This document shows, piece by piece, positions 2,884 to 62,760 of a stretch of 64,000 nt of DNA; positions within the stretch are counted from its first letter, which is position 1, and every line of letters starts with the position of its first letter. The notes under the pieces were generated by a model. The model had not been told where the DNA came from. It did not search any database and saw nothing but the letters and a program-made list of their open reading frames with translations. Position numbers and translations under genes: made by a program. Source of the stretch: Verrucomicrobiales bacterium (GTDB lineage: Bacteria; Verrucomicrobiota; Verrucomicrobiia; Limisphaerales; UBA1100); the NCBI GenBank assembly GCA_005809105.1, contig SYLI01000006.1:1-64000 (forward strand), given 5' to 3'.

Positions 2884-2938
2884 GTGCGCATGACGCCGTG
2901 CCGGAGGCGCTTCGACAACAAAAAACGGTTTCTTGTGT

Positions 2939-4420
2939 CTACTCGTAGCGCAGGGCCTCCACCGGGTCCAGACGCGCGGCGCGCATGGCCGGATACACAC
3001 CGGCGAGCAATCCAAAAAGCGTGGTGAACACCAGCAGCCCCCCAAAGAGCCAGGAGGGCGGCAGGAAGAGGTCGGTGTTGCCCAGCACGTCGGGCCAGCG
3101 ATGAGCCGCCCACACATTGCCGAGGCTGCAGAGCAGCCAGCCGCCGCAGCCGCCGGCGATGCCGCCAAGGAACCCGATGGCCGCGGCCTCAACGGCAAAC
3201 ATCCACGCCACCAGCCGCCGCGTGGCGCCCAGTGCCTGCAGCACGCCGATTTCACGGCGCCGCTCAAACACCGCCATCAACAGCGTGTTCACGATGGAGA
3301 ACGCCGCCACGACGAAGGCGATGCCGCCAAAGATGAGCAGGAGCTTCTGCAGGGTGACAAAGAGGCTGTGCAACTCGCCCAGCAAGTCCTCCACCGACCG
3401 CGGCACCAGCCCGAGAGCGCGTACGGCCTGCTTGACGGCAGGCACATCCGCCGCCTCGTTGACGCGCAGCAGCGCGCCCAGCCCGAACGCCCGCTCGGTG
3501 TAGAGGTCGGGGTTGCGGAGCAGGATGCGGCCCATCTCGCGTGCGTATTCGTCGGGGACATAGACCAGATTTGAGAGCAGCCCTTTGCGGGCGACACCCA
3601 CGACCTTGGCCGGAAACGTCCGTGCGTCCGTGCCGTTGCCTTCGCGCTCAAAGGCCTGGAGCGTGTCGGCCATTTCCCCCAGCTGCATGAAGAGTGCGAG
3701 CATGGCCTCATCGGGGTCCGCCGGAGGTTTGCGCACCAAATCAAAGAGGCGGCGCAGTTCGGCGGGCGTGTCGCCGGCCAGCCGCGGCTGGCCGGTGATG
3801 TTGAGCAGCGGATGCTCGCTGATGTTAAGCAGCACCGTTTGGCCAAGGAGCGCGTCGGCCGACGCCAGGCCCAGCGACTGCAGATAGGCCTCGGACACGA
3901 TACATTCATGCGCCGAGTCGCTGCTAAACCCGCGGCCTTTTAGCAGCAGCTCCGGCCCGGCCTGGATCCACGGCACCACGATGGTGTCAAACTCGCGCGG
4001 ATCGCCGCGCACCTGCAGCGACCGGGCCAGGATGAACACCATGGGTTGCACGGCGCTCACTCCAGGGATGCGCCGCAGTCCCTCCACCTGCGCGGGCTCA
4101 AGGTACTTGATCTGGAAGGCGCCGATGAACTCGTCCTCCTTTTCCGAGGTGATCTCACGCGGCGCGCGGCCCAGCCCGGTGACCATCGACTGCGCCAGCC
4201 GCGCCGGATTGATGCCGCTCTTGGGCCACGCCTCCACCAGGCGGGGGTTGGCCAGGGCGCGCACCTGATGGTCGAGAAATTGCGAGAGGCCGTGGCCCAG
4301 CGAGACGATGAGCACCACCGCCAGCGCACCGATGACGACGCCTGCCATGGTGAGCGCCGCGCGCGTCTTCTTGCGCGTGAGATTGCGCGCCACCTCGGCG
4401 ATGAGATCGGGCGGCGTCAT
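2939..4420 (-). CDS. MacB/LolC-type ABC transporter permease
   Basis: Integral membrane subunit (493 aa) of a type VII (MacB/Lol) ABC system, which uses ATP to drive events on the periplasmic side rather than classical substrate passage. It has one N-terminal helix (LTMAGVVIGALAVVLIVSLG), a large periplasmic MacB_PCD domain (about residues 45-350) and three C-terminal FtsX-domain helices, with the RRREIGVLQALGATRR motif in the cytoplasmic loop. The start codon overlaps the stop of the upstream ATPase gene (ATGA), so the two form one operon read from about 5106. No adaptor (MacA-like) gene is adjacent. Substrate unknown. Confidence 0.9.
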   Translation of the reverse strand: MTPPDLIAEVARNLTRKKTRAALTMAGVVIGALAVVLIVSLGHGLSQFLDHQVRALANPRLVEAWPKSGINPARLAQSMVTGLGRAPREITSEKEDEFIGAFQIKYLEPAQVEGLRRIPGVSAVQPMVFILARSLQVRGDPREFDTIVVPWIQAGPELLLKGRGFSSDSAHECIVSEAYLQSLGLASADALLGQTVLLNISEHPLLNITGQPRLAGDTPAELRRLFDLVRKPPADPDEAMLALFMQLGEMADTLQAFEREGNGTDARTFPAKVVGVARKGLLSNLVYVPDEYAREMGRILLRNPDLYTERAFGLGALLRVNEAADVPAVKQAVRALGLVPRSVEDLLGELHSLFVTLQKLLLIFGGIAFVVAAFSIVNTLLMAVFERRREIGVLQALGATRRLVAWMFAVEAAAIGFLGGIAGGCGGWLLCSLGNVWAAHRWPDVLGNTDLFLPPSWLFGGLLVFTTLFGLLAGVYPAMRAARLDPVEALRYE

Positions 4421-42294: not shown

Positions 42295-45200
42295 ATGGCC
42301 CTAAGGTTTTCTGTCCAATATGGGACTTTGTCTGATGTTGTGCCTGTAAAGCGCAAGCAACTCTACCTGACGCTCCTCGCAGCCGCACTCGTGATTGGCG
42401 GGGCGGTGGGGCTTTACCTCCAAAAGAAGCAGCGGCGGCTGCCTTTGCTCTTCACCGATTTGGCCGCGGCGCAGGCCCCGGCCAGCTTTCCCGAACAAGG
42501 CATCGCCAAGCGGTGGCGCTGGGTGACGCTGGACAACGTGGGCTTGGGACAGCTTTCCATTCTTCCGCAGAAACCCAAACGCGTTCGCTTAAACCTGTTT
42601 CCTGATCTTGAGGTTTCGGCGGTGATCACCGCGAACAAGACGCACTGGAACACGGACCAGTCCGCGCTGGGCATCATCAACGACGATCCCGATTCGCTCT
42701 TCGTCATGTCGCGGCACAAAGACATCATGATGGGGATGGTGGTGCTGCCCGACGCCCGGCAGGTGCTCATCAGCCATGTGAAGGATGGCAAGTATGTGAT
42801 TGTCGAGGTGGACCCGCGCAAAGGTGGCGGCTGCGGCACTTGCGTGGATGACGCTGCACCCGCAGCGGCTGGTGATCATCCAAGCCATGGCACCAAACCC
42901 TCGGCGGCCGCTCCATCGGGCGACGCGGCGGCGTTTGCGCGGCGCATGGCAAAAGCCGATGGCGCCGTGGGCCATTCGTTGGCGAGAGAATGCGTGCATC
43001 CGCCCTTGCCGCCCGTTTCGCCCGTGATGCAGCAGGGTGATGGCAGTGTCCAGCCGCTGCCTCCCGAATCACCGCTGCCGCGGCCGCGCACGGCGTCGGT
43101 GCAGGTGCGGCCGATGCTGGCGGCAATTAATCTAAAGAATCTGCAGCCGCTCTTGGCGCAGGGGGCGTACACGTTGCAGGGGCAGGGCGGTTCCGCGCGC
43201 CAGACCATGGGGCCCACCACGCCTCATTCATTGACCTACCAGCGGCCCGGTTACACCGAGTACATTGACATCCTCTTCATCTACGACTTGCGCACCCTGG
43301 CGCAGGAGGGCAACTTCACGCAATTGCAGGGCAAGGTGACGCTGATGCTTGACGTGGTGAACAGCATCTATGCCGCCTGCGCCATCAGTCTGGAAGTGCG
43401 ACAGGCCGGCGCGTTGACGCCGGCCATTCGGCGCGCAATGGCCGGGAGTCCGGCGGATCTGACAAGCTCAGGCTACTCGGCGACGGGGCCGGCATGGCAG
43501 GAGGTTCAGGCGCCGGTGCGGCCCAACCGCACCAACACCGATCCTACGCAGTGGACCGTGTGGACTCCGGTGGGCACTCAGAAGCAGGCCAAGCCAGGCG
43601 TGTACCAGCCGCTCTTTGAGGACAGCAACAGCACGGTTGATTTGAACGAGGCACTCACCTGGCTCACCACCCGCAGCAACTCGCTCCTCTATGGCGACCA
43701 ACACTGGGGGGAGGCAATGTTTAGGTCTTCTACTGGCGTCAACACTCAGGAGCCCTACGTCAACCTCCCCGCCGGCACCTTGTGGCGCTTGGAGCCCAGA
43801 GCGGTGCCCGCCGCCCCCATTTACACCGACACCGTCCATCCCAACCTGCGCACGGGGCCCGTGGATCACGTGGACTCGCCCTGGGCCATCCAGTCAGACC
43901 CCGGCACGCCGCCCATCACCCACGACACCTACGTTTACCGTTACGATGTGGACGGCATCAACGACACCTACGGCACCCAATTCAACCCCCTTTACTCCGG
44001 GATGATTGGGCTGCGGATGGATGTCAATGGCTCCAACTACAACAACGTGGCCTTCACGGGCAACCCGAATGGTGGGGCTACCGCCCGCTATACGACGTTG
44101 CATGGCCAGACCGGGAATTTCGACCCCACCTACCAGATCAACACCACCCCCTACCGGATGGATGCGAGGGCCGACATCGTGTGCATGCTTTCCCCAGACG
44201 CATTTGCACTTGGTGGCGCTGGCGCGGTGGGGCTGGCACAGAAGTACTCGAACCTGAAACCGGTGGCAAACCCAGCCGGCGCGGTGGGCCGGGGGCCTTA
44301 TCCGCAGCCCAATCTGGTGCATGAGCAGCAGTACAGCCGCCACGATGGCGACATCTCGTTGGCTGCCGGAACGCCGTACTTGGGCACCTTCTCAACACTG
44401 CGCCCCACCCAGTTGGCCAACACCGCTGCATCGGGCCTGGTGGGCTACTGGCCGTTTTTGGGCAACGCCAACGACCTGAGCGGGCTTAACAACCACGGCG
44501 TTCTTGTGGGCAACGCGGCGCTGGGCAATGACCGGTTCGGCAACGCCAGCGCGGCGGTGAGCCTGGATGGCTCAGGCGACCATGTGAGCATCCCCGTCAC
44601 CGCTTCCTTGAACATCGCCAGCAAGTTCACCGTGTGCGCCTGGGTGCGCCCCACGCAGTTCACCCACCTCACCTCTCCGCATATCTTCGCCGCAGTGCAG
44701 GGCGCCACCCGCCGCATCACGCTGACGGGCGACGGCACGGCTGCCAACAATGGCACGGTGGTGTTTTATCCCCAAAGCGACAGCGCCAATCAGGTGAGCA
44801 CGCCGCAGCCCAACATCGCAGGCGTGGCTCAGCCGGCCCTCGCGCTCAACCAGTGGCATTTCATCGCGGCGGTTTATGATGGCTCGCAGTCCAAGATTTT
44901 CCGCAATGGCATGCTGGTGGCCGTGGACACGTCGGTGGCCGGAGGCAGCATCGGCACCATCTCCAATCTCTACATCGGCGACAGCACCGCAGGCACGCCG
45001 GCGCAGAACCAATGGCAGGGGCAGATTGATGACGTGCGGCTCTACAACCGCGCGATGGGCGACGACGAGGTGGCCGGCATCTACATTTCAGAACGACGCC
45101 CGCAGACGATGCCCTCGGCTGCCAACCTCGTGTTGCACATGCCCTTTAATGGCGGCAGCCTGGCGGATTTGAGCGGTCAGGGGAACGACGCCAACGCCAC

Positions 45201-48200
45201 CCCCACCGTGGCGCTGGGGCCCACCAAGGTCATGGATCGTCACGGCGCCGCCTTGAGCAGCTACCAGTTCGATGGCGCGGATGACGGAATTCGCACCGTG
45301 AGTGCCAATGGCCTGCCCGTGGCCGCCAGCGATTTCACCATGTCTCTTTGGGTGAGCCCGGGTGCCTTGCAAGGCCCTGACGGCGCGGCCGATCTCGTGG
45401 TGGTCAACCGCGGCCAGGCCAACCGCGTGTACCAGAACATCGGGGGCGGGCAATTCGCGCTCAAGGCGGGGGTTCTCCCTGCGGATGTTCGCAGTGGATC
45501 CTCGGTGGTGAGTGGCGACATCAACAAGGACGGCTTCCTTGATCTTATTGTCGGCAACGGGCAGACGGGCGTGAACGATGAGACCCGGCTCTACATCAGC
45601 AACGGCGATGGGACTTTCCAAGCCGCGCAAACCTTCGGCGGAGGCAGTCAGCGCACCATGGCGCTGGCGCTGGCGGACTTGGACGGCGACAGCTACCTCG
45701 ACTTGGTTCAGGGAAACTACGGTCAGCCCAACCGGTTTTACATCAACAACCAGTCGCGCACCGGCGGGTTCAAGGCGCCCATCAATGTGGATGCCATTTC
45801 CTACAACACCCGCGCGCTGGCATTGCAAGAGGTGAACGGTTCCTTCGCGTTTCTTCCGCCCGCATTTGGAGCTCCCGTGGAGAACATGGCGGCCGTGCCC
45901 GCCACGTTGCCCCGGGCATTGGAGAGCGCGCCGCCGTATTTCGTGGGGTTGGACGCCGCCGGCCCGGATGGAGACTTTGACCCGCAACTGCTGCTGGCGC
46001 AGGCTGCCGCGGGCGTGGCGACGCCACCCATTGCGCCGGTGCGCCCGCTCACCAATGCCGTGCCCGTGGCGCCGGTGTTCCCTCCCGAACTGGCGGCCAT
46101 CCCCGCCGTTCAGCAGTATCCCTTGATGCGGATCGGTTCCCGCGCGGTGATCCCCACCATCCACGGCCGGCAGGCCTCGTATCGCAACATTCATTTTCCC
46201 GGCAACCGCCTGCAGGCCGAGGCCACCGCGCGCCGCTTTCTGGACACCATGTCCGCCACGCTGGGGGTTCGTGCCGGGGAGAAAGATTTGGGCCTGCTCA
46301 AAGTGCAGCACGGTCTGGCGGGCAGCACGGTGTTTTTAGAGCCCAAGCTCCACGGGCGGCGCATCTACAACGCCAGCATCTCCGTCCACTTGGGCGCGCA
46401 GGGGCAGGTGGAAACCCTGCACCTCACGTACTACGCGGGGGTGAAGGTCGAGGATCAGCAACCGGTGATTGACGTGCGCGTGGCCGAGACCATCGCGGAG
46501 CGCCGGCTGGGCGCCAAGTCGGTGCGCCGGCGTTTTGCCGACCGAGCCGAGCAGGTGTGGTACATCAAACCCGACGGCAGCGCGGCACTGGCATGGAAAC
46601 TCCTGGTGGCGCCCTCAAACACGCTGGCGCTGTACGAGGTGCTGGTGGATTCCCGGCTGGCGGGCGTGCTGTCGGTTCGCGACACCAACCTGCATGCGCC
46701 CACCACGGGCAGCGGGCTGGCCTTCACGCCCAATCCCATCCAGACGCAGGGGAGCACCTTTGGTTTGTTCAATGCAAACCCGGGCAACGACGGCACCTCG
46801 GCGGCGCTGAACTTGCAGCGGCAAACCGTGACGTTGCTTGACCTCAATGGTTCTGGGTTTCTGGATGGCAAGTATTTGCACATGAGCACGGTGGCGCCCA
46901 TGAACGCCACCGTGGCGCAGGTTCATGCCTTCAGCCTCACCTCCACCTTCAACTACGATCGCAGCGATGGGCGCTTCGAGGAGGTTTGCATTTATCACAC
47001 CATTGATTCGGTCCAGCGCTATTTTCAGTCGCTGGGATTCAGCGGCTCCAACATTCCCGCCAACGGGCTGCGTGATCAGGTGATGCGCGCTTGCGCGCAT
47101 TCCTTCGAGGGCGTGGGCTCCGGCCTCAACGCCTTTTATAGCCCGGCGCTGAACGAGATCCATTTTGGTCAGGGTGACATGGGGCACGCTAGCGGCGACA
47201 CGGTGGACTTGGCGGAGGATGGCGATGTCATCGCGCACGAATACGGCCACGCGGTGCTCTTTGCCGTGAACCCCGGGCTGGCGATGGGGGGATGCATGTC
47301 CGGCATAAAAGGGGTCAATGAGGTGGACGCCATCCACGAGGGGTTTGGCGACTATCTGGCCTATGCGTTCTGGAGCGAGACGGGCAACGCCGGCTATCTG
47401 AGCGTGGCCGCGCAGCGCGCCCGCGGCGGCGAGTGGGCGATGGAGCAGTACCCCACGGCGATTCGCAGTGTGAACAATACCACCTATGGCTACGCCAATT
47501 GGAATGGCGAATGCCATCATGACGGCGAGATTTGGGCGAACGCGTTGTGGGACTTGCGTGTCAGCCTCGAGACCAAGCACGGCAAGCCGCTGGGCAGCCA
47601 GATGGCTGACAAGCTCGTGTTCGAGTCGCTGCGAAACTACCCGAACATCTGCACCTTCAAGATGGCGGCCATCGAGATTTACAAGGCTGACCAGGCTCTC
47701 AATGGCGGCATCAATGCCGGGCACATCATCAAGGCATTTAATGGCCGCGGTTTCACCACGACGCCCGACTTCCCCAGCCCCCCCGATTTCCCGGATTTGG
47801 TGGCGGGGAATTATCTCGGTGGCGGCAGCGTGGGCTACAGCAATCTCATCGGAGGCTTTGGGCCGCCGATTGCGGTTACTGCGTCCATGTCCACCACCGC
47901 CTTGGCGCTGGGCGACATCAACGGCGACGGCCGCGCCGATCTCATCGTGGGCAACGACGCCACCTTCAACTACCTCTACGTTAATAACGGCACGGGCGGT
48001 TTTCCCGTTGGCCTGCGCCAGCAAATGACCAGCGACAATCTCGCCACTCGCGCCCTTGCGGTGGGGGATGTGGATGGCGATGGCGATCTGGATGTGGTGG
48101 CCGGCAACTACGGCCAGCGCAACAAGCTCTACCGAAACAACGGCACGCCCACACCGTTTTTGGGACTCACGGGCGAGGACATCCACACCGATGCCGACAA

Positions 48201-51200
48201 CACCACGGGCATCGCGCTCAACGACGTGGATGGCGACGGAGATCTGGATGTGCTGGTTTCCAACGACGGCGCCATTCCCAAGCTCTACCTCAACAGCGGC
48301 GTGGGCGTGTTCAGCGCGGGCAGCCCCATCACGGGCGCGCTGGCGGAAAATTCCCAGGCCATACTGGTGGCCGACGTTGCCGGGCCGGGCCGACGCGTGC
48401 TGCTGGCCAACCAGTCCGCCGGCCAGTTCGAGGTGCATCTGGTGGCCGCGACGGGCCGCAATGCGGGTCTGGAGTTCTTCATGGGCGACCCCTCCGCCCC
48501 CAAGGTCACCACCTCCGCCATGAACTGGTCGCTCAACCAGTGGTACAACGTGGTGGTGCGGCGATCGGGCAACACGGTGACCGTGTGGCGCGACGGAATG
48601 TTGCTGGCACAGAACGACAATGTCGTGGCAGGAAACGCGGCCTCACCGGCCAACCAGAGGGTGAGCATGGGCCGGCGCACGCCCTTCCCCAGCTACTTGA
48701 TGCAGGGCACGATGGATGACATGCGAATCTACAACCGCGCGCTGACCGATGCGGAGATTGAGGAACTCTTCGTCTCCGAATGGGCTCAGCCCATGGCGAC
48801 TCCATTTGATTCGATCACCTCGCTGCGGGCGCATTATCCCATCCGCTCCACCGATTCGCCCTTTGCCGTCACCGAAATCGTGGGCACGGGCCCCGACGGC
48901 GTGCCCAACGCCGGTGCCTTGCGCGTCAGCGGCCGTTACGGTGCGGCCGATGTGCAGGGCGCCTACGAGCTGGCTGGCACGGTGGGCGGCTACATCAACC
49001 TGGGGGCGAACACCTCGTTTGGCACCGGCGCCTTCACCGTCTCGATTTGGGTCAGCAACGCCAGCGTGCCCAACGCCGTCAGCGCCGACATCATCGGCAA
49101 CCGCGTCTTCTCCTCGGGGAACGAGTGGTGGCTGGCGTTGCAGCCCAGTGGCCGCGTGGTCTTTCGCGGCGGCGGCACCACGCTGCAGTCCAATACCGGT
49201 GCCGTGTTGATGGATTCCTCCGCATGGACGCATCTGGTGGTCTCGCGCGAGGCCAACGGCAGCGCCACGCTGTACGTGGACAAGACCCCCGTGGCCACGA
49301 CCACATCCATGTCCGCGAACCTGAACACCCTCAACGAACTCTGGATGGGCAGGGCCGGCGGCGGGGGGACCGACTACTACAAGGGGCGCGTGGATGAACT
49401 CCGGCTCTTTCAGGGCCGCGCCTTGCAGGGGTGGGAAGTGTCCGCGCTCTATGATCTGGAACGCCCCGCGTCGGTCGGCACGGCGAGCATCACGGTGAAC
49501 TTCACCCCCGACGCGGTGGATGCGGGGGACAGCGTGCGCCTGCAGCTCTACTCCAACAGCGCGGCCACCGAGGCGGCGTTTTACACCACCGATCTCAACG
49601 CGACGGGCAAGACTTTCACCTACACCTTCAACAGTGCGGCGGCGGCCAATGCGTGGCAGGACTTGCAGGGGCAGTTCCGGTTCACGCCGCAGGGGGGACG
49701 GGTGACCATTGACAACGTGGTGATCACCGTCAACGGGGCCTCCTTCACCTACAGCGGCACGGACGTTCCCGTGCGGATTTCCTCCGGGGACAAGCTGGCC
49801 AAGAACATCCAGATGAACCGCGACAGCACCTTTGCGATGGCGATGCTTTTGAATGCCGGCGGTGCCTACACGCTGGCCCACGAGCTGGGTCATCTCTTGG
49901 GATGCCACCATGGCATTGGGGACACATGGCTGCGTCCGGATAGTCCCAGCATCACCTTCAACCCCTACGGTTCCGAGACCATCGCCGGCGGGGTTACCGC
50001 GGGGGTGGGCAATTACGTGCGCGACGAATTCCTGGCGATGGGCAATCACTTCACGACCTGGGGCACCCCCACCGGCCAGCCGGGCTCCGGCACGTGGGGG
50101 AAATACTGCACCCTCATGGCGTACAGCTTTCCCGGCAACGCGTCCAGCAACCCGCTCTGGACCAGAATCCCCCGCTTCTCAAGCCCGTATGTCTATTGGA
50201 AAGGCAAGGCGACGGGGGATAGCCACGGCTTTAATCTTCCGCCTCCCTTTGGGAACTACAACAAACCGCTCTACTTCGACAACGTGAGGGTGCATCAGGT
50301 GGTTGGTCCCATTGTGGGTTTCTACCGCGACGACAATGGATCAGACCGGCTGCCTTCCGAATTCCAAACGCCCTTGCGCGGGCCGCAGGGCGTGCCCGAT
50401 ATGGACACCAACTTTGCCTCGGGCAATCCCCAGCAAGTGGCCCAGGCAGGAGGCGGCGCCGGTGGCAGCAGTGGTGCGGGTGCCCCCAAGCGCAACACGG
50501 GATTGGGCGCGGGTGTCTCCGGCGGCAATGGGGGCAATGGGGGCAATGGGGGCAATGGGGGCAATAGCGGCAGCACGCCGGGCACCACCAATCCTGCTCC
50601 CGCCACGGGGGGCAATCCCTCCGGCACACCGCCTGCCACCGGTTCAAAGGGTGGCACCACGGCCAACCCTACATCTCCACCGAATCCGGGCGGATCGAAC
50701 CCACGGCCCACGGTGACGCCCGGTGTTGTCGTGTCCGGCCCCGGTGTGCCCAACGACCGCAAGGCGGGAAGCCTGAACATTGCCTTGCGGCGCCAGGCCG
50801 ACACGAGCTGGTCGGGCATTGCCGATGGACACAACCGGGGTGCGACGGCGGACGCGGGCGACAACGCCCTGGCTCAGACCGACGACCGCCGCCCGGCGTT
50901 TCACGGCCGTTCGGTCTGGTGGCACGCCGTGGTGCCGGAGGATGGAACCTATCAGGTGCAGGGCACCACGGCGGGAAGCACCTTTGACACCACGCTCACC
51001 CTGCTGCTGCCCGAGGAGGGCGGCGCGCTCTCCAACGACAACGACCCCGGCCAGTCCGGCCCGTCCAGCCGCGTGCAGACCGGCGAGAGGGTGTTGAAGG
51101 CCGGACAACGGATTTACTTCGCCGTGGACGGCGTGGATGGGGCGCAGGGGCAGGTGCGGCTTAACGTGCGCCTCTCGCCGCTCAAGCGTGGCGGCAACTG

Positions 51201-51216: not shown

Positions 51217-54200
51217 ATGAATCGCAGGGCCAAATGGATTCGCGCGGGCTGGGTGACGCTCGTCATCGCCTGCGGGATTGCCGGCCTTTGGTGGCGGCAG
51301 GCCAGTCGGTTTGCGCCGCCGCTCTTCGTGGACTTGCCCGCGCATCTCAAGCCCGAGTCCTTCCCCCAAAGCGTCATCGCCAAGCGGCACCGGTGGGTTT
51401 ATCTGGACACGGCGGCGCTCCAGCGCCTCACCAAGATCGGGGGGCGCCTCAAGCTCAATCTTTTCCCCGACATGGAGGAGGTGGCGGTGGTGGGCGCGCA
51501 CCGTTCGCACCCGCACGGCGACCAGTCGGTTCTGGGCCACCTTGAGAGCGGGCCTTACGAATCGCTCTTCGTGTTCTCGCGCAGTGAACAGGTGATGATG
51601 GGATCGGTGGGCATGGCCGATGGCAGGCAGGTGCTCTTAAGCCACGTCCGTGGCGGCGCCTATGTGATTCTGGAGGTGGACACGCGCAAGGTGGGGGGCT
51701 GTGGCACCTGCGAGCCTGAGCGCACCGCGAGCAAAGAAGCCGCGCCGCCACGCCCGTCATCCAAGGCGTCGGCACCGCCGTCCGGGTCGGCCGAGGGTTC
51801 GGCCTTTGCGCGGCAGCTTTCGCGGCGGTCGGGTGCAGGGCCTTGGAGTGGGATTTGCGAGGCGTGCAATGGCGAGCGGACGGCGCGGCCGGTGGCCGGC
51901 ACCCCGGACATCGCCCCGCTGCATTCTCATACGGCCCTTCCTGAGCCCACGGCGCGGCGGCAGGTTCTGCCCAAGCCAACGCTGGCGCAGCGCCAACTGC
52001 CCCTGCTGGCGGCGATGGGGTTGCCCACACACGTGCTGGCCGCCACCGGCCCTTACGGCATTCATAATGCGGGGACAGGCAAGAAGGGGGGCGCCGGTTC
52101 CAGCCCGGTCTCTGCCAGCAGCCGCTACCTTATGTCGGTCGGCACCAGCGAGTTTCTCGATGTGTTGTTCCTTTACACCGACGCGCTGAACACTCAGTTG
52201 GGGGGAGGGGCGACAGGGCTGCTCAATCTACAGGCCTCGGTCACGCTGATGGTTGATCAGGCCAATCAAATCTTTCTGGAAAGCGGTGTGCCCTTCCAAA
52301 TCCGGCAGGCCAGTCTGTGGAAGGCGACTCACCGGGCGATGACGGCGATGGACGGCGGGATTAGCGTCACGGCTCCCAATCTTCTGGGCGCGGGCTATCC
52401 CACCGATGCGCCGGCATGGACGGAGACGCAGGCACCCGTGCGCCCCGACTATTCCAACGGCGACAACAAGCTCTGGACGGTCTGGAATCCGTGGAAAGGC
52501 ACGGTGGGCGTGACGACGTGGAATCAAAAACAGGCGATGGAAGGCGTGTACCAGCCCACGATGGTGAACGTCAAGAAAACGGAGGTGGCGGACTACCTCA
52601 AGTGGATCACCAACCGCAGCAACAGCCTGCTCTACGGCGACCAGTACTGGAAATCAGGAAAACTCTTCACCGGCGCCGTGATTGAATACGTTGAGGCCAA
52701 CAACACCAAGCAGTATTTCCAGCAGCACCGCACCGCCAGCAACCTCGCCACCCGCGCCATCGTGCCCTTGCCCACCAACGGCGCGCCGATGAAGTTTGTT
52801 GGCAATTCCGACTATGCCACCCTCAGCACCATCGTGCAGCACGATCCAGGCTCGGGCGTGGCCGGGTTCATCACGGCCAACACCAGGTTGTATTTTAGAA
52901 ATGGCAATGCGACGGGCCGGTTTTCGTTGCACTCCAAGTCGGCGCACGCCTCCAACGGCAGTTTTCCGGTGCAAATCGGCGCGGACGATCCGCCCTTGGA
53001 TCCGCTCCCGGTGGGGTACTCGCTGGAGCTGGTTGAGCAGGACAACTACAGGGTTAATCCCTTCATCAATCTTCCCGCGGGCTTCACATGGCGGCTGGAA
53101 CCTGATAAGGCGGGAAAATCGCGCATGTACAAGGAGAGTGTCAATCGCGCCGTGGCGGTGGGGCCGGTGGACGATCCGCTCTCCAGCACCGCGATCAAGG
53201 CCTTTGGCCCTGGCGATGCCACGCCGCCCACGAGCATCAAGGACGATAATGCCACCAACCACACGCCGGTGCAGCGCTACGAGCTGGACACCAGCGACCT
53301 CGTCCCCGGCATCGCCAACGGGACCTATTATGGCAATGTGTACAACCCGCTCTATTCGGGTGTGCTGGGGCTGCGGATGGACCTCAACGGGTCCGACTAC
53401 GCCTCGATTGATTTCAATGGAACGCCGCTGGCCTCCGCGCTGCTGCCGGTGCGCTATCCCAACCTGCACCGGTTTCAGGAGACGCCCTTTGTGCCCACCG
53501 CCTTGGCCGCCGACCCCCGGGCCGATCTGGTCATCCTGCTCACCGAAAACCTGGCGGGCAGCGCAGGCATCGCCACCAAGTACATGAACATCACCCCGGC
53601 CGATCCGGCCCGAACCATCGGGCGGGGGATGTCGCCCGAGCCCAACAAGGTTCAGGAAAAGACCGCCGACTATCACGAGGGCGACCTGTTGGGCGGCAGC
53701 AGCCGCATGTTGGAGCGATCCTTCACGTCGCTGCCGGTGACCGGCACCATCAACACTTCCACGACCTCGCTGGGGAGCAGCGGGTTGGTGGCGTACTATC
53801 CCTTTGACGGCAATCTGACCGACTCCAGCGGCAATGCCCACCACGGCGTGCTCTCCTTGGGAACGGCCGCCTACACCACCGACCGCCTTGGCGTGGCGGC
53901 AAAGGCGCTCAGTCTGGATGGCACCCAGCGCGTGGAGGTGACGGCGGGCGCGTCCGTTTTCAATTTCAACAGCACCACCAGCTGGGCGGTGAGCGCGTGG
54001 ATCAAGCCCAACGATATCGCGGCCGAAGGCGGCATCTTGAGCCAGGCCGATTCGGCGACGGGCGTGGTGAACTACCAGATGGGCCTGCGCAATTCCAGGT
54101 TGAGCAGCGAGAGTCCGCCGCTCAGTCCGGTCACGGGCGGCAACTCGGGCGCGGTGCTGGGTGGCACGGGCGAATGGAAGCACCTCATGTATGTGTATGA

Positions 54201-57200
54201 CCGCACCGCGCGCGGCGGCACCGGCGGGTCCTCCTCGTGGACGGGCTTCGGGAAAGTCCAGCGTTACATCAACGGCATGCTCTTTGATGAGATTGGCATG
54301 AATGCGCCCTCGGGCGTGGGCGCAGGCGACCGGCTGTTGCTGGGCGACAACGCGGCGGGGACGGCGCCCTTTGCCGGTGCGCTGGATGAGGTGCGCGTGT
54401 ACAGCCGCTCCTTCACGGGCACGGAGGTTCGCCAGCTTTACGGCAGCGAGAAGAACGCCACCGCGTTTGATGCCCTCACGGGCCTCGCCTTCCACTACCC
54501 CTTTAATGGCGCCTCCACCGCCGACTTGAGCGGCAACACCAACACGGGCGTGGTTTACAACGGTGCGTCGCACCCGCGGCCCGACCGCTACGGCAACGCC
54601 AATGGTACGCTCTCACTCGATGGCGTGAATGATTACATGCGCTCCACCAAGACCACCAACTTCCCGCGCGGGCCCGGCGCCTTCACCTATTCGGTGTGGC
54701 TCAAGCCCGGCAGCCTGCTTTCCCCGGACAGCCGGCTGGACTTGCTGACGGGCCACGGCGCGGGGGTGCCCTCGCAGGTGTTTGTCAACGAAGGCAACGG
54801 CTCGTTGCGCCCCTTCGTGGGCGATCACCAGGTGTCGGGCACCTCGGGCAACGCCACCACCAGCGTGGCGGTGGGCGATCTCAACAACGACGGCTACAAC
54901 GATTTCGTGCTGGGCAACTGGCGCCAGCCCAGCGTGGCCTTCCTCAACAACGGCAACGGCGACTTTGGCGCGGGCATCATGGTCTCCGCCGACGCCAATG
55001 ACACCCGCGACATCAAGCTGGGCGACATCAACCGCGACGGCAACCTCGACCTCGTGGTGGCGCGCGACAACGGCCAGTTCAACCTCATCTACATGGGCCG
55101 CGGTGATGGCACCTTCCAGCCGGCCGTTGAAATCGAGCCTTCCTCGCAGCTGCTCTTCGACGACAAGATTGGGCTGGTGGTCCACTACCACTTTAGCAAT
55201 GGCACGCTGCTGGACGCCAGCACGTCGGCCAACCACGCCAACGCCACCGGATTGCCCGCGCTGGCACCGGGCGTGGGGCCCTTGCCGGTTCCCAACAGCG
55301 CCTACCGGTTTAATCCCGTCACGGGCGCGGGCGCGATGCAGCGGCAATACATCACGAGCAAAACGGCCAATGGGTTTCCGTCAGGCACGGGCAATTTCAC
55401 CGTTCTGGGCTGGGTGAATCCCAAGTCCTTTTTCGGCATGGACGGGCTGCCCGATGTCATCACCGGCGTGGGCGGCGGCCCCTTGCGCATCCACCCGGGC
55501 TACGGCAACGGCTCGTTCGCCTCGCCCCGCACTTTTGGCGGCGTGAGCGACACGACGGCGCTTTTGGTGCGCGATGTGGACGGCGACGGCGATCCGGACG
55601 TGGTGCAGGGTGCCTACAACCAGCTTAACCGCGTGCATCTGCTGCACGGCAACGGCACCTTTTTGGCCAGGGACATTGGCACGGCGCCGGGCGAAGCCAA
55701 TCGCACCCTGTCGCTGGCGATGGCCGATTTGAATTTGTTGCCGGCGGTTGGCCTGCCCGATCTGGTGGTGGGCAACGCCCATCCCGACCGTGACGTGGTG
55801 TACAAGAACATGGGCAACGGCTCGTTTGTGAAGGTCGAGGAAATCATCGGGATGCAGCCCATGAACCCCATCCCGACAGGCGCCATCTGCCATTTCAAGA
55901 TGGACGGCTCGCTGGCGGCCGACGTCGTGCGCGACTTTGCCGTCAATGAGTGCAACGGAACCGTGACGGGCTGGGGTGTGAGCGTCAATGCCACCACCAG
56001 CCGGCACGGGCGTCTCAATAACGCCGTGGTGGTGGACGGCTACAACGGCGGTCGCATCTCCTGGCCGGCCAGCAACGCCACCACGTGGTTTGGCGACATC
56101 CCTGCGCTGAGCATGTCGCTGTGGGTGAAACCCATGGGAACCCAAGCCACCGCGCGAACCGTGCTCAGCTGGACCTCGGTGGCGTACGCCACGGTGGATG
56201 GCTTTGCGTTGCTGTTGCCGGAGAACGCGTATGGCGGCCGGTTTCAATATTTCTCGAGGTCGGTCAACTGCTTAGGCGGCGCGTGGCCCGCCGGCTGGGC
56301 CAACACCGGCTGGCAGCACATCGTGGTCATCCGCAAGCTGGTCACGGCGTTTAACAACGAGTCGCTCGAGATTTATCTCAACGGTAGCCTCAATAATGTG
56401 CAGGTCTCCACCGGGCCGCCGGGGGTCAACGTAAATCCTTCAGGGGCGTTCGCGCTGGGCGCGTGGGCCAGCGGCGGCGGGCAGCCCTCCCACTTTGGCG
56501 TGGACGACATGCGCGGCTACCGGCGCGTGCTGAGCGCGACGGAGATTCTGGAGTTGTACAACGAAAGCGCGCCGGTCTTTCAGGAGTCCAAGGGCCACAG
56601 CCGGTCTGTGGCGCTGGCTGATCTCAACAACGACGGCAAGATGGAGCTCATCGTGGGCTCGGATGGAAACGGCACGATGGTGTACCAGAAGAACCTGGAT
56701 GGCGCCATCACCGATCCCCAATTGTTGGCCCGGCGCTTTGGCGTGGTGCGCTATCTGAGCAGCGGCGCGGCCTTTAATCGCACGAGCTCCGTGTGGGTGG
56801 GCAACGCCACCGGAGGAACCATGCCCGACATCATCGAGGGCAACGACAACGCCTCCACCATGCTCTACCGCACGCTGGGGTATCCTTTCATCAACTTCAC
56901 ACCTCCCTACAACGACTGGCGATATCAAAAACCGGTGATGAGCGGCGCCACGCCCATCCCGCCGCCGGGCGAGACTTGGGTTGCACGGGATTCCAACCGC
57001 AATTGGTCGGCCGTGGCGTCGTCATCCAATGGCTCAAAGTTGGTCGCCACGGTGATGGGCGGCCAGATCTACACGTCCACTGACCTGGGCGCCACGTGGG
57101 GAGTGGGCGGGAGTGCCGTCGGCAACTGGAGCGCGGTCGCTTCTTCTGCTGACGGGGTGAAACTGGTCGCAGCCCGATCCGGCGCAGGCGTCGGCCAGAT

Positions 57201-60200
57201 TTACACCTCACCGGATGCAGGCGCCACGTGGGCTTTGCAGGGTTTAAGCCCGACGCGCGATTGGACGGCGCTGGCCTCGTCCGCGGACGGCACCAAGCTT
57301 GTGGGGGTGGGCAATGCTTCCGAGCTTTTCACCTCCACCGATTCGGGAGCGAACTGGACCCCGCGGAGTTCCGCGCGGGTGTGGGCCGACGTGGCAGGCA
57401 CTCCCGACGGGGTTCGTCTGGTGGCCTGCGAGGCGGGAGCGGCAGGGCGAATCTACGTGTCCATCGATTCGGGGGTGACTTGGGCGCTGGGCGGCAATGC
57501 CACCTATCCGGTGGGCAACTGGGCGGGAGTGGCCTGTTCTGACGACGGCTTCCGGATGGTGGCGGTGATGAATGGCGGCCAGGTCTACACCTCGGTTGAT
57601 GTGGGCACCACATGGACGCCGCAGGTGGCCAGCCCCACCGCGGCATGGAAGGCCATCGGCGCCAACCTGACGGCGCAGTGGCTGGTGGGGGTGACGACCG
57701 GGGGCAACATTTACACCTCTACCGACTCGGGCGCGACTTGGAGGGCGAGTGACAGCGCCCGCGCATGGACCTGCGTTGCCTCGTCGAGCAATGGCATGGA
57801 CCTGGTGGCGGGCGTGAATGGCGGCCAGATCTACACCTCCAACGCGCTGGTGTCGGGCACCCGCGCCATCCGGCTCATGCAAGTGATGGGCCCCATCGCC
57901 ACGCAGCACGATGTGGTGAGCGGCAGGCATGGCAATGCCAGCCAGATCTACGCGGGGAATGGCACGGGCTTCTTCGCATCGGGGCTGGTGTACAGCGGGC
58001 TGGATGACAACACCACGGCGATCGAGATCGCCGACATGAACCGCGATGGCATCGCCGACATCCTGGCCGCCAACGAGGATGGCCCGGACAAGGTGTATCT
58101 GGGCGATGGAGCTGGCAACTTTCAGACAATGCTGCTGCCCGGTTCGGCCGGCAACTCGACGTGCATCGGCGCGGGGGACTTCACCGGGCCGGGGCGCCAG
58201 ACCATTTTTGCCAACCGCAGGCTGGGGGCGTTTGAACTGCACCTCAATGCGGGCGATTCCACCCGGCCCACCGAGGCGGCGATGGAGTTTTACACGGCCG
58301 GCGACGACGTCACGCCCCTGCTCACCAGCGCCAACATGACGTGGGATCCCAACCAATGGTACTTCGTGGCCGTCCGGCGCGAGGGCGATGTCCTGACACT
58401 CTTCCGCGACGGCGTGGCCATGGCGAACGCCACCGATGCATCGGGCCTGGGCAACACGGCCACGCTGGCCGAACGAATCCTCGATCTGGGCTACCGGCCT
58501 GCTTTGCAGGGCGGCCACTTCCCCTTGAACGGCAATGTGGACGATTTTCGCATCTACACGAAGCCCCTGTCCGACTCGGAGATTGCCCAGCTCTACAACA
58601 TGAACGCGCCCACGCTGGCGGCGTCAACGGAGTTGGTGGGGCATTATTCCTTCGACTACGTGGCCACCGACAATCCCGTGGGCACGGTGCTGCGCGATGA
58701 AAGCGGGCGCAACAACAACGGCACGCTGGGAGGCGCCACGGCGCCGCTGCCCACCTTCGACAAACTGGGGAGAGCGGCCTCGGCGCTGCTCTTTGACGGA
58801 GTGGATGACGTGGTGACCATCGCACCGGCCACCGCCGCCAACTTTGGCGACTTTAACATCAACGCCACACAGAACCTCACGGTGGCGTTGTGGGCGCTGC
58901 CCAACACGCTTTCCAAGCCCAACAACCCCATCCTCACGCTGCGGGATGGCTCCGGCAACGCCTACTATCAGATGGAGTTTAACAGCAGCATCTTTGCCAC
59001 GGCGATGCCGCCCGTGGGCCCGGCTGGCAATGGCACCTTTGCGGTGAACCCCGGCTGGCGCTTCTTGGTCTTGGTGCTTGATCGCACCGCTTCGGAAATC
59101 CGCCGCTACGTGGACACGCGGCTCTGCGATGTCATCCCGATCAGCCTGCCGGCGGGGACGCTGACGGGCACGCAGCTGGTGCTGGGGGCCAACGACGCCA
59201 GCGACGCGTTCTTTGAGGGCGTGCTCGATGATCTGCGCATCTACAACCGGGCGCTCTCACCGGGCGAGGTGGCGCAGCTTTACCAGAAGATGCCCTCGGA
59301 CATTCCCACCGACTCGCGGGGCGTGGCCATGGCGGATCTCAACAACGACGGCGATCTGGATCTGTTCTTTGCCAACTACAACCAAGAGAGCATCTGGTTT
59401 GAGAACAACGGCACGGGAGGATTCCCGTTGGCGCGGCGGATTTACACCGGCGACATTTTCCGGTCCACCTCCATCGCCGTGGGCTCCATCAACGGCGACG
59501 CGACTCCGGATCTGGTGCTGGGCAACGAAGGCCAGCCCTCGGTGTGGTACCGCTCCTTTGGTTCCGGCGACGCGTTCAATCCGAAGGTCAATGTCTCCAC
59601 CGACGCCAACCAAACCCAGGCCGTTCTGCTGGTGAACGTGGTGGGAACCGCGGCGCTGGACCTGGTCTCCATCAACCGCAACGAACCGAGCAAGATTTAC
59701 CAGAACCTTGGGGGGGCATGGTCGTTGCCGTCCTTCTTGGATCCCGCGCAGGCTTCGTATGATTCAACCTCGGTGGCCGCCGGCGATGTGGATGGCGACG
59801 GGCTTGTGGATCTGGTGGTGGGCAACAACGGTGTGGCCAATCGGGTTTACAAGAACAACTTAGGCACCTTTGCCAACGGCATCGCCATCACCAGCGCCAC
59901 CACCGGCAACTGCACTGCCGTGGCGCTGGCCGACTTCGCCGGCGACCGGCGCGTGCTGCTTTCCAACCAGAAGGACGCGGGCGGCCGCGCCGACGCCTTC
60001 TCCATCCATCTGCTGCCGCTGGACAAGAACAACACGGCGCACGTGCAGTACTACGCAGGCGGGCTGCTCATGACCGAGTCCACCACCGACTGGAACTTTG
60101 ATCCCGCAAGCTGGCATCATCTCGTGGTGACCCGGCGCGATCCGTTTGATGCGACCAACCCCAACGGCGTGCGCATGTACTTGAACGGTTCATCCATCGG

Positions 60201-62760
60201 CACCGGGACGGCGGCCATGGGCAACTCCGCCATCGGCGCGGCCGAGGTGATTGACACGGGTTATCGCAAGTGCACCGACCAGTTCCCGATGAAGGGAGAA
60301 CTGGACGACCTGCGCCTCTACAACCGCGCGCTCAATGATGCGGAGGTCGTGGAACTCAACTTGGCCGACCAACCCCCGCCGCCCAACGTCAACCCGTACC
60401 AGGGGCTCGTGGCGTGGTACCGGCTCGCGGCCAATGGGCTGGACTCGGCCGGGGTGTACAACCTGCACGGCACCATGAGCGGCCCGGTGCCCACCGTGGG
60501 TGTGGTCAACGATAGCAGCGGCGCACTGGAGTTTAACGGCAGCCGGCGCGACGTGGTGAATGTGGGCCACCATGCCGCGCTCAATGGCAATGCGTCGGCC
60601 GGCTTGAGTTTCACGGCCTGGGTGAAGACGTCGTCGGCCGGCACGCTCTCGGGCACGCTGGCGGCGAAGGACGGCACGATTGGCAGCTGCGGCTGGCGCG
60701 TGGAGGTGAATGCCACCACAGGCCGCGTGCAATTTCTGACCAGTCCCAACGGGACGACAGTCAACACGCTGGTCGGCGTGCAGCCGGTGAACGACGGCGC
60801 CTGGCACCATGTTGTGGTGACGATCGGTCCCGGCGGCCGGCGGATTTATGTGGATGGCTTTCTGGATGGCAGCTCGGGCGCAGGCACGGCGCTCTTTGCC
60901 ACCACGGCTGAATTCATGCTGGGCATGGACAGCATGACGCTGCCCACGGTGAACGGGCCGCTCACCGGGCGGCTGGATGAGGCGCGCGTGTATGACACCG
61001 AGATTTCGGCGGCGAGGGTGGCTGCCATCCACGCGGCGGAGAAGCCGGGAATCGAAGGCTATGCGACCATCAGGGTGCACTTTGTGGGCGACAGGCTGAC
61101 GGCCGGCGACAGTGTGCGCCTGGAGCTCTTCAATGATGTGGACACGAAGCAGGCGCCCTTCTTCAGCCAGATCTTTACCACGGGGGGCGATTCCATCACC
61201 CACACCTTCATGTCCAATGCCACGGGCAATGCGTGGCAGAACCTGCGCGGTGCGTGGCGCCTGAAGGGGATCGCCGGCTCGATAACGGCGGACTCAGTGG
61301 ATATCGAGGTGCGCAGCGGCCAGTTTGTGTTTGGCCTGACCCAGACCATGAACCAGGTGCCCGGTCAATCGCTCTACAATTTCAACGCGCAGATCAACCG
61401 CGATGTGTACTCCGCCGGCGTGGTGCAGCTCTCGCAAGCCACGGCGCAGTACAGCTTCTGCCACGAGATCGGGCATCTCTTGAGCGCCAGTCATGGCATG
61501 GGCGACGACGTGGCCGTCGGCATCCTCGACGCCAGCCACACCTTCAGCCCCTTTGGTTCGCACTTTAATTACGTGCGTGATGAGTACCTCTCCATGGGAA
61601 ACCACTTCACCGCCTTTGGAGGCACGTCGGGGGCCGCCGGAACCTTTGGCAAGTTCTGCACCATCATGGCCTACACGCGCAATGGCGTGTACAAGCGCAT
61701 TCCCTACTATTCCAGCCCGAGCGTCGTTTATTTGGGCGTGCAGACGGGCCACAGCCGCGATCACTACCTGCCTCCCCCCTTCGGCAATTTCAATCAGGCG
61801 CTCTACATGGACAACGTCCGGGCCATGGGGGTCGTCGGCAAGGTGGTGGTGCAGTATCGCGATGTGAACGGCACGGGCCGTCCGGTGGATCCCAGCACCG
61901 TTCCCGCCCCGTTCACGCCGCCACAGGGCGTGCCCTTGATCACCACGATGGCGACGGCCCCGGTGGGCGGCAATGCCACGCAGGTGGCCGTGCTAAACCC
62001 CGCGAACCCGACTACGCCGGCCGATGGACTAAAACCGCCTGCCACCACGCCCGGCACAAGCGGCGGCTCTCCGGCCAGCGGCACAAATCCCATCACCACA
62101 CCCAAGGCGTCGAGCCCAGGCTCACCGACCGGCCGCCAGCCCTCGACAGGCTTGGGTGGGGCCACCGGCTCCACCGGAACGAAACCCCCGGCGGGAGGGA
62201 CGATTGGCGGCACCACGCCGACGCCGCAACCGACACCCACCAACACCACGCCGCGTCCAACCGTGCCGGTCATCCCCACCACCCCTCGTGTGGCCACTGT
62301 GCCCAACGACCAGTTTGAAAACAGCATTCTCCTGCAGCCCAAACCGCTGGCCGATGCCAGCCTCTTGGCGTCGGACAACGGCCACAACATGGGGGCCACC
62401 GGAGGGGCCAATGAATCGGCGGGCCTGCGCTCGGACGACGGCCGTCAGGTGTTTTACGGCAAGTCGGTGTGGTGGGTGATGCAGGCGGCGCGCGAGGGCG
62501 AATACGAACTTGAGGCCTCCACACAGGGCAGCAACATTGACACGACGCTGAGCGTATTTCTGCCGGGCATGGGCGCTCCCCTGTCCAATGACAACGGCGC
62601 GGGCGTGGCGCCCGCCAGCCGCGTGGTGGTGCCGCGGGTGCGGCTCAAAGCGGGCGACCGCGTGTACTTCGCCGTGGACGGGGTGGACGGCGCCGAGGGC
62701 AGGCTGCGAATCTCGGTGCGCCTAAAGCCCGTCAACGCCGCGGGCGCTTCCAAGCCCTAG
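51217..62760 (+). CDS. Giant membrane-anchored metzincin with nested LamG, FG-GAP and Asp-box domains (protein 2)
   Basis: 3847 aa. Order (residues, approximate): TM anchor 7-26; pro-like region with GGCGTC (C162, C165); metzincin first part ~310-800 (FLDVLFLYTD; DPRADLVILL); LamG-0 856-1078; LamG-A first half 1090-1168; propeller A blades 1-3 1169-1313; LamG-B first half 1319-1407; propeller B blades 1-3 1408-1549; LamG-C 1557-1785; B blades 4-5; seven Asp-box (SxDxGxTW) repeats 1921-2212; B blades 6-7; LamG-B second half 2325-2464; LamG-D 2472-2692; A blades 4-7 2700-2910; LamG-A second half to 3052; LamG-E 3063-3277; beta domain; metzincin second part with HEIGHLLSASH (H3416) and Met-turn M3484; Pro/Thr/Gly linker; PPC-like domain 3694-3840. 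The HExxHxxGxxH Gly is Ser here. Likely cotranscribed with protein 1; substrate unknown. Confidence 0.85.
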   Translation: MNRRAKWIRAGWVTLVIACGIAGLWWRQASRFAPPLFVDLPAHLKPESFPQSVIAKRHRWVYLDTAALQRLTKIGGRLKLNLFPDMEEVAVVGAHRSHPHGDQSVLGHLESGPYESLFVFSRSEQVMMGSVGMADGRQVLLSHVRGGAYVILEVDTRKVGGCGTCEPERTASKEAAPPRPSSKASAPPSGSAEGSAFARQLSRRSGAGPWSGICEACNGERTARPVAGTPDIAPLHSHTALPEPTARRQVLPKPTLAQRQLPLLAAMGLPTHVLAATGPYGIHNAGTGKKGGAGSSPVSASSRYLMSVGTSEFLDVLFLYTDALNTQLGGGATGLLNLQASVTLMVDQANQIFLESGVPFQIRQASLWKATHRAMTAMDGGISVTAPNLLGAGYPTDAPAWTETQAPVRPDYSNGDNKLWTVWNPWKGTVGVTTWNQKQAMEGVYQPTMVNVKKTEVADYLKWITNRSNSLLYGDQYWKSGKLFTGAVIEYVEANNTKQYFQQHRTASNLATRAIVPLPTNGAPMKFVGNSDYATLSTIVQHDPGSGVAGFITANTRLYFRNGNATGRFSLHSKSAHASNGSFPVQIGADDPPLDPLPVGYSLELVEQDNYRVNPFINLPAGFTWRLEPDKAGKSRMYKESVNRAVAVGPVDDPLSSTAIKAFGPGDATPPTSIKDDNATNHTPVQRYELDTSDLVPGIANGTYYGNVYNPLYSGVLGLRMDLNGSDYASIDFNGTPLASALLPVRYPNLHRFQETPFVPTALAADPRADLVILLTENLAGSAGIATKYMNITPADPARTIGRGMSPEPNKVQEKTADYHEGDLLGGSSRMLERSFTSLPVTGTINTSTTSLGSSGLVAYYPFDGNLTDSSGNAHHGVLSLGTAAYTTDRLGVAAKALSLDGTQRVEVTAGASVFNFNSTTSWAVSAWIKPNDIAAEGGILSQADSATGVVNYQMGLRNSRLSSESPPLSPVTGGNSGAVLGGTGEWKHLMYVYDRTARGGTGGSSSWTGFGKVQRYINGMLFDEIGMNAPSGVGAGDRLLLGDNAAGTAPFAGALDEVRVYSRSFTGTEVRQLYGSEKNATAFDALTGLAFHYPFNGASTADLSGNTNTGVVYNGASHPRPDRYGNANGTLSLDGVNDYMRSTKTTNFPRGPGAFTYSVWLKPGSLLSPDSRLDLLTGHGAGVPSQVFVNEGNGSLRPFVGDHQVSGTSGNATTSVAVGDLNNDGYNDFVLGNWRQPSVAFLNNGNGDFGAGIMVSADANDTRDIKLGDINRDGNLDLVVARDNGQFNLIYMGRGDGTFQPAVEIEPSSQLLFDDKIGLVVHYHFSNGTLLDASTSANHANATGLPALAPGVGPLPVPNSAYRFNPVTGAGAMQRQYITSKTANGFPSGTGNFTVLGWVNPKSFFGMDGLPDVITGVGGGPLRIHPGYGNGSFASPRTFGGVSDTTALLVRDVDGDGDPDVVQGAYNQLNRVHLLHGNGTFLARDIGTAPGEANRTLSLAMADLNLLPAVGLPDLVVGNAHPDRDVVYKNMGNGSFVKVEEIIGMQPMNPIPTGAICHFKMDGSLAADVVRDFAVNECNGTVTGWGVSVNATTSRHGRLNNAVVVDGYNGGRISWPASNATTWFGDIPALSMSLWVKPMGTQATARTVLSWTSVAYATVDGFALLLPENAYGGRFQYFSRSVNCLGGAWPAGWANTGWQHIVVIRKLVTAFNNESLEIYLNGSLNNVQVSTGPPGVNVNPSGAFALGAWASGGGQPSHFGVDDMRGYRRVLSATEILELYNESAPVFQESKGHSRSVALADLNNDGKMELIVGSDGNGTMVYQKNLDGAITDPQLLARRFGVVRYLSSGAAFNRTSSVWVGNATGGTMPDIIEGNDNASTMLYRTLGYPFINFTPPYNDWRYQKPVMSGATPIPPPGETWVARDSNRNWSAVASSSNGSKLVATVMGGQIYTSTDLGATWGVGGSAVGNWSAVASSADGVKLVAARSGAGVGQIYTSPDAGATWALQGLSPTRDWTALASSADGTKLVGVGNASELFTSTDSGANWTPRSSARVWADVAGTPDGVRLVACEAGAAGRIYVSIDSGVTWALGGNATYPVGNWAGVACSDDGFRMVAVMNGGQVYTSVDVGTTWTPQVASPTAAWKAIGANLTAQWLVGVTTGGNIYTSTDSGATWRASDSARAWTCVASSSNGMDLVAGVNGGQIYTSNALVSGTRAIRLMQVMGPIATQHDVVSGRHGNASQIYAGNGTGFFASGLVYSGLDDNTTAIEIADMNRDGIADILAANEDGPDKVYLGDGAGNFQTMLLPGSAGNSTCIGAGDFTGPGRQTIFANRRLGAFELHLNAGDSTRPTEAAMEFYTAGDDVTPLLTSANMTWDPNQWYFVAVRREGDVLTLFRDGVAMANATDASGLGNTATLAERILDLGYRPALQGGHFPLNGNVDDFRIYTKPLSDSEIAQLYNMNAPTLAASTELVGHYSFDYVATDNPVGTVLRDESGRNNNGTLGGATAPLPTFDKLGRAASALLFDGVDDVVTIAPATAANFGDFNINATQNLTVALWALPNTLSKPNNPILTLRDGSGNAYYQMEFNSSIFATAMPPVGPAGNGTFAVNPGWRFLVLVLDRTASEIRRYVDTRLCDVIPISLPAGTLTGTQLVLGANDASDAFFEGVLDDLRIYNRALSPGEVAQLYQKMPSDIPTDSRGVAMADLNNDGDLDLFFANYNQESIWFENNGTGGFPLARRIYTGDIFRSTSIAVGSINGDATPDLVLGNEGQPSVWYRSFGSGDAFNPKVNVSTDANQTQAVLLVNVVGTAALDLVSINRNEPSKIYQNLGGAWSLPSFLDPAQASYDSTSVAAGDVDGDGLVDLVVGNNGVANRVYKNNLGTFANGIAITSATTGNCTAVALADFAGDRRVLLSNQKDAGGRADAFSIHLLPLDKNNTAHVQYYAGGLLMTESTTDWNFDPASWHHLVVTRRDPFDATNPNGVRMYLNGSSIGTGTAAMGNSAIGAAEVIDTGYRKCTDQFPMKGELDDLRLYNRALNDAEVVELNLADQPPPPNVNPYQGLVAWYRLAANGLDSAGVYNLHGTMSGPVPTVGVVNDSSGALEFNGSRRDVVNVGHHAALNGNASAGLSFTAWVKTSSAGTLSGTLAAKDGTIGSCGWRVEVNATTGRVQFLTSPNGTTVNTLVGVQPVNDGAWHHVVVTIGPGGRRIYVDGFLDGSSGAGTALFATTAEFMLGMDSMTLPTVNGPLTGRLDEARVYDTEISAARVAAIHAAEKPGIEGYATIRVHFVGDRLTAGDSVRLELFNDVDTKQAPFFSQIFTTGGDSITHTFMSNATGNAWQNLRGAWRLKGIAGSITADSVDIEVRSGQFVFGLTQTMNQVPGQSLYNFNAQINRDVYSAGVVQLSQATAQYSFCHEIGHLLSASHGMGDDVAVGILDASHTFSPFGSHFNYVRDEYLSMGNHFTAFGGTSGAAGTFGKFCTIMAYTRNGVYKRIPYYSSPSVVYLGVQTGHSRDHYLPPPFGNFNQALYMDNVRAMGVVGKVVVQYRDVNGTGRPVDPSTVPAPFTPPQGVPLITTMATAPVGGNATQVAVLNPANPTTPADGLKPPATTPGTSGGSPASGTNPITTPKASSPGSPTGRQPSTGLGGATGSTGTKPPAGGTIGGTTPTPQPTPTNTTPRPTVPVIPTTPRVATVPNDQFENSILLQPKPLADASLLASDNGHNMGATGGANESAGLRSDDGRQVFYGKSVWWVMQAAREGEYELEASTQGSNIDTTLSVFLPGMGAPLSNDNGAGVAPASRVVVPRVRLKAGDRVYFAVDGVDGAEGRLRISVRLKPVNAAGASKP

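Follow-up and report, generated by a model that had tools for sequence, protein, structure and literature searches.

Two adjacent genes for giant metzincin-type proteins

The DNA analysed here, referred to as the window, is a stretch of 64,000 nucleotides (bases 1-64000 of contig C63) from a 2.99-Mb MAG whose close named relatives are Verrucomicrobiota MAGs, including 'Pedosphaera sp. isolate Baikal-deep-G217'. Its forward strand, on which all window features described below lie, carries at 51217-62760 a single ATG-initiated ORF encoding P0001, a protein of 3,847 aa. Separated from this ORF by a 15-base gap, and 5' of it, lies the gene for a tandem paralogue, P0002 (42295-51201; 2,968 aa), which was absent from the account in an earlier note on this DNA. 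P0001 comprises an N-terminal membrane anchor, a propeptide-like region, a split catalytic domain, a Pro/Ser/Thr-rich linker and a C-terminal domain, the anchor and the linker being read from the sequence, and is predicted to be a membrane-anchored, secreted metzincin protease.

Two lines of evidence bear on the catalytic domain. First, a metzincin profile of 248 positions, built from eight uninterrupted relatives, matches P0001 in two parts with complementary coverage, at aa 740-805 (53434-53631; model 22-84, E 4.9e-11) and at aa 3388-3539 (61378-61833; model 93-247, E 6.6e-40). The two parts are 2,582 residues apart, in line with the separation of about 2,600 residues first proposed for a stack inside a metzincin. 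The metzincin of P0002 is split likewise (575-658 and 2502-2666), as is that of the L017 orthologue, and the insert occupies the segment immediately N-terminal to the HExxH helix. Second, both proteins carry the HExxHxxGxxH motif and the Met-turn of reprolysin-like M12 peptidases, i.e., HEIGHLLSASH at aa 3416 and CTIMAY at aa 3481 in P0001, where the three His are retained and Ser replaces the usual Gly, and HELGHLLGCHH and CTLMAY in P0002. The Pfam Reprolysin_5 match (E 6e-4) is below the curated cut-off, and the PDB matches of the family profile, nearly all of which are metzincins (ADAMTS-5, serralysin, BaP1), are weak (E 0.002-0.75); metzincin membership, therefore, rests chiefly on the motifs and the family profile. 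A small beta-rich domain of ~100 aa lies N-terminal to the C-terminal metzincin part in P0001 (window 61054-61377), in P0002 (49462-49797) and in L015-L017.

Split LamG domains between the metzincin parts

We scanned both proteins with a LamG profile of 210 positions built from 10 intact LamGs of the family. With N-halves and C-halves written as opening and closing brackets, P0001 reads full,(,(,full,),full,),full. Its four intact LamGs (PF13385) are LamG-0 at aa 854-1075 (53776-54441; model 1-210), LamG-C at aa 1553-1781 (55873-56559), LamG-D at aa 2470-2689 (58624-59283) and LamG-E at aa 3062-3272 (60400-61032), while the split ones are fully covered only with their halves combined. LamG-A consists of an N-half at aa 1087-1168 (54475-54720; profile match 1088-1172, model 2-89) and a C-half at aa 2908-3048 (59938-60360; match 2926-3047, model 103-209), and LamG-B of an N-half at aa 1317-1406 (55165-55434; match 1319-1406, model 3-85) and a C-half at aa 2323-2460 (58183-58596; match 2355-2460, model 111-210). 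P0002 reads F ( ) F, with a full LamG, a match to model 2-93, a match to model 92-210 and a second full LamG; the halves of its LamG-M lie at aa 942-1026 (45118-45372) and aa 2029-2159 (48379-48771).

Both N-halves of P0001 end at one point of the fold, around model position 85, and the C-halves restart at around 103-111. This split point is common to the split LamGs of P0001 and P0002, and every N-half has a C-half partner. The halves score 13-46 bits (weakest 13.3) compared to a best score of 4.7 bits in 200 shuffled copies of P0001, and a profile made from four LamGs from outside the window gives the same picture in P0001, with only the N-half of LamG-B missed. Rejoined in silico, a check that the earlier note had asked for, the halves match the LamG profile over its full length (A, 115 bits; B, 72 bits; the paralogue, 102 bits). 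The idea that two half LamGs have their second halves far downstream is, thus, borne out by complementary profile coverage, and the residue numbers originally given for P0001 are correct to within ~10.

Blade counts and nesting order

FG-GAP repeats, found as 11 stretches of PF13517, lie between the LamG halves. In propeller A, blades 1b, 2 and 3 (aa 1169-1305; 54721-55131) precede the insert and blades 4, 5, 6 and 7 with the closing strand 1a (aa 2695-2907; 59299-59937) follow it, giving 3+4. In propeller B, blades 1b, 2 and 3 (aa 1407-1545; 55435-55851) are followed by LamG-C, then by blades 4 and 5 (aa 1790-1895; 56584-56901), an Asp-box (BNR-like) propeller (aa 1920-2213; 56974-57855), and finally blades 6 and 7 with the closing strand 1a (aa 2214-2322; 57856-58182), giving 3+2+2. 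LamG-D lies beside module B within propeller A. Blade 6 of A and blades 5 and 6 of B score weakly, and the 1a and 4a strands were assigned by eye. The Asp-box insert, identified by its repeat count, by weak Pfam BNR and Sortilin-Vps10 matches and by its relatives, has seven W-strand units at aa 1929, 1970, 2015, 2055, 2101, 2143 and 2183. Each FG-GAP propeller totals seven blades only under nested bracket pairing. These sums and the count of Asp-box repeats agree with the numbers put forward from the first reading of the sequence.

P0002 has the same kind of module with a different content. Blades 1b, 2, 3 and 4a of its propeller M precede an M36 peptidase with its propeptide (aa 1181-1829; 45835-47781), and 4b, 5, 6, 7 and 1a follow; the blade halves 4a and 4b place the peptidase in the D-x-N calcium loop of blade 4. 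The M36 fungalysin assignment is based on PF02128 (E 3.9e-17), HEYGH at aa 1648 and EGFGDY at aa 1682. P0002, as read from profiles, Pfam and blade analysis, is metzincin > LamG-M > propeller M > M36 peptidase, and so holds two proteases in one chain, the M36 nested within the metzincin, an arrangement kept in L017/L028 from another genus at 44% identity.

Alternatively, the protein could be a plain string of domains in which the half LamGs have decayed or been truncated, with blades that either follow the order of the sequence in closing or do not close. Some blades are indeed degenerate, and AlphaFold2 models do not show bridging of the halves, with a mean pLDDT of 38.9 for P0001 1317-2460 and 58.3 for P0002 960-2159, both from shallow alignments in which the halves were placed in separate rows, and not across the split, to avoid forcing a pairing. 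In the P0002 model, the blades and the LamG C-half are mostly at 70-90 pLDDT, whereas the N-half is mostly below 50 and its first 50 residues are at 27-44; a fold search with this model returned an M36 propeptide, FG-GAP propellers (KICSTOR subunit, CRTAC1) and trans-sialidases, all at low TM-score and low confidence. The P0001 model is uninformative, and the two models speak neither for nor against bridging. However, a plain string does not account for halves that all break at one point, cover the profile in complementary fashion and each have a partner, for blade groups of 3, 3, 2, 2 and 4 that add up to seven twice only when nested, or for the complementary partial blades 1b and 1a in each module. 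Moreover, the P0002 arrangement is conserved across genera. We, therefore, regard decay in a plain string as improbable.

Pairing of the halves

Mispaired N- and C-halves score about as high on the LamG profile as the proposed pairs. Because any N-half fits any C-half equally well, the profile alone cannot decide the pairing, and this leaves room for two alternatives to nested pairing within one chain. The first is a crossed pairing, in which the N-half of LamG-A joins the first C-half and the N-half of LamG-B the second, giving an interlocked protein. In a tree of joined halves, the four split LamGs fall into a single group (87/81) and the inner LamG-B groups with LamG-M of the paralogue (98/95). 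In separate trees, B groups with M in both the N-halves (84/88) and the C-halves (96/96), with A outside; in the C-half tree, the outer C-half of A groups with A16 from another genus. Since the N-half of B and the first C-half both group with M while the N-half of A and the second C-half both fall outside, the half trees favour nested over crossed pairing, and they also favour a single origin for the LamG[propeller] module. If each set of blades stays with its LamG half, a crossed pairing would also not give seven twice. Crossed pairing was rejected on the N-half and C-half trees, and we give it very little credence.

The second alternative is complementation between chains, in which halves of P0001 fold with P0002 or with a second copy of P0001. 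In its favour, the genes lie next to each other, both encode the split module, and mispaired halves fit the profile equally well. Against it, P0002 needs no outside partner for its own bracket pair, and the LamG scan of the proteins studied here found no chains with unpaired halves; we consider such complementation highly unlikely.

Altogether, profile coverage, blade arithmetic, half trees and uninterrupted relatives support the order that the earlier note had set out, and P0001 very probably has a six-tier nested architecture with the metzincin as tier 0, LamG-A as tier 1, propeller A as tier 2, LamG-B as tier 3, propeller B as tier 4 and, side by side as tier 5, LamG-C and the Asp-box propeller.

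Relatives with other stacks at the same locus

Some loci of relatives carry two labels in our data (L018 = L029, L019 = L031, L021 = L033 and L022 = L032). A Gfo/Idh-type gene is adjacent downstream of the family gene in L026, L027, L030, L031, L032 and L033, and PabB and Der genes lie upstream in L023. Among the relatives, this one locus carries different domain stacks, and some members lack the inserts of P0001 or have other nests, e.g., metzincin>M36>NHL>LamG. The metzincin stretch of L029, L031 and L033 runs through the P0001 site without a break. Their insert, an M36 peptidase, lies at a more upstream position and is in turn divided by an NHL propeller; in L029, Pfam gives the M36 as two stretches. 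In L033, a LamG (7640-8269) lies inside the NHL propeller at a position where L018, L019 and L023 have a loop of ~18 aa; comparison by eye with these three loci gave no clear duplication at the DNA flanks of this LamG. The pattern expected of nested insertion, i.e., A1-B-A2 together with uninterrupted homologues, was found for the metzincin and for LamG, and L033 provides a filled site with empty counterparts. Two compact members in L024, of 501 and 534 aa, have no inserts.

The junction between the LamG N-half and blades 1-3 is rare. Of 286 genomes of the order, only G003 and the genome that contains the window gave matches to at least 219 of the junction's 224 positions; in the other genomes, essentially the blades alone match, and a few matches begin at position 26-58. 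The P0001-like protein of G003 (L027:2-1175) seemingly has a different ConA-like domain in place of the N-terminal part of LamG-D.

A mis-joining of LamG and FG-GAP repeats during assembly of the MAG could also produce an apparent nest. The innermost tiers of P0001 are present on one contig of one assembly, and the contigs of relatives stop before these tiers, breaking in the same gene, a pattern that repeats would produce. However, the open frame runs through 11.5 kb with in-frame, domain-exact junctions and a uniform composition (GC content of 0.60-0.69 across segments), the P0002 nest is independently present in L028, and L027 from another genus matches P0001 in the succession of a LamG end, blades 4-7 of A, the C-half of LamG-A, LamG-E and the metzincin. 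An assembly artefact is, thus, a very improbable source of the architecture, and we retain the six-tier nest as the preferred reading.

Insertion history

We suggest that the stack was built by successive in-frame insertions at places where the two ends of the inserted domain lie close together. Because the ends are close, the host domain would still fold from two separated halves. The simplest history, offered as a reading, is that a propeller entered a LamG once, that the resulting module was duplicated, and that a P0002-type copy was inserted into propeller A between blades 3 and 4 to become the inner module. Because the trees contain few sequences, this history is a reading and no proof. 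The Asp-box insert (window 56974-57855) is ~55-70% identical to repeats in unrelated giant proteins of G021 and G031, which belong to other families of the order, while the match from its own family is partial, in G001; it may have been acquired from outside.

All three LamG[propeller] modules (3/3) have an insert near the boundary of blades 3 and 4. More speculatively, and in our estimate rather less probable than not, the locus would act as an insertion trap, in which the LamG[propeller] module repeatedly takes up domains near this boundary and has also entered its own paralogue; recursive in-frame insertion would then be an ongoing route for diversifying surface proteases and no freak event. 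Because relatives at the same locus carry different stacks, the stepwise build-up can be followed, and because they include empty, partly filled and differently filled forms, the order of insertions, the tolerant sites and the insertion of a self-copy are directly testable.

Comparison with known systems and possible function

To our knowledge, deep nesting is rare and mostly known from finished structures only. For LamG/propeller nesting and for giant proteases of Verrucomicrobia, our literature search found nothing relevant. Insertions occur in ~20% of multidomain proteins, with inserts smaller than their hosts, and the Si3 region of cyanobacterial RNA polymerase RpoC2 is a six-level recursive domain nest (Protein Sci. 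2026, PMC13114784). The initial statement that no described enzyme is nested this deeply was, therefore, too strong: the depth of P0001 equals and does not exceed the six levels of RpoC2, although here the nested domains are of full size. Both systems show repeated A1-B-A2 insertion over six levels in one chain, and both have insert-free lineages. They differ in that the RpoC2 stack consists of small hybrid-motif domains within a region of 545 residues, whereas the stack of P0001 comprises ~2,580 residues of LamGs and propellers. Contrary to the published rule (PMC13114784), the inserts in P0001 exceed their hosts, with propellers of ~350 aa and a payload of 1,739 aa in LamG-A, and P0001, thus, tests that rule. 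It is also a hard case for domain annotation and structure prediction because standard tools give the split LamGs as partial matches only.

Closer relatives offer further comparisons. The compact reprolysin-like metzincins of L024, from the same taxonomic family, share HExxHxxGxxH and similar N-terminal and Met-turn regions with P0001 but have no insert, and the syntenic neighbours were not found beside them. L029, L031 and L033, from another genus, have the same metzincin family and recursive nesting, and L031 and L033 also have the Gfo/Idh gene as their downstream neighbour, but their stack and its site are different; in L033, the order is metzincin > small domain > M36 > NHL propeller > LamG.

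In gelatinases, the insert is placed right before the active-site helix. MMP-2/9 carry fibronectin II modules in the catalytic domain (PMC3024946) and, like P0001, combine a metzincin catalytic domain with internal substrate-binding modules, substrate binding in P0001 being predicted; by contrast, MMP-2/9 have three small modules, and the exact loop may differ. By this comparison and from the domain types, the stack could serve as a substrate-capturing exosite beside the active site, built from lectin-like LamGs and calcium-binding propellers and used in the digestion of glycan-rich protein matter. We advance this role tentatively, as one that is quite conceivable but falls short of an even chance.

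Two observations concern glycosylation. P0001 (window 51217-62757) has 70 N-x-S/T sequons compared to 30 on average at other spacings, a ratio of 2.3; the ratio is 1.7-2.3 in L021, L022 and L023 and ~1.0-1.2 in large control proteins. The genome also encodes a 1,628-aa STT3/PglB-like protein (G000:C36:67075-71958; L110:2576-7459) with WWDYG and GYFDTD motifs, and STT3 matches were found in 12 of 20 genomes of this taxonomic family vs 1 of 20 outside it. Together, the sequon enrichment and the STT3-like protein suggest bacterial N-glycosylation of surface proteins.
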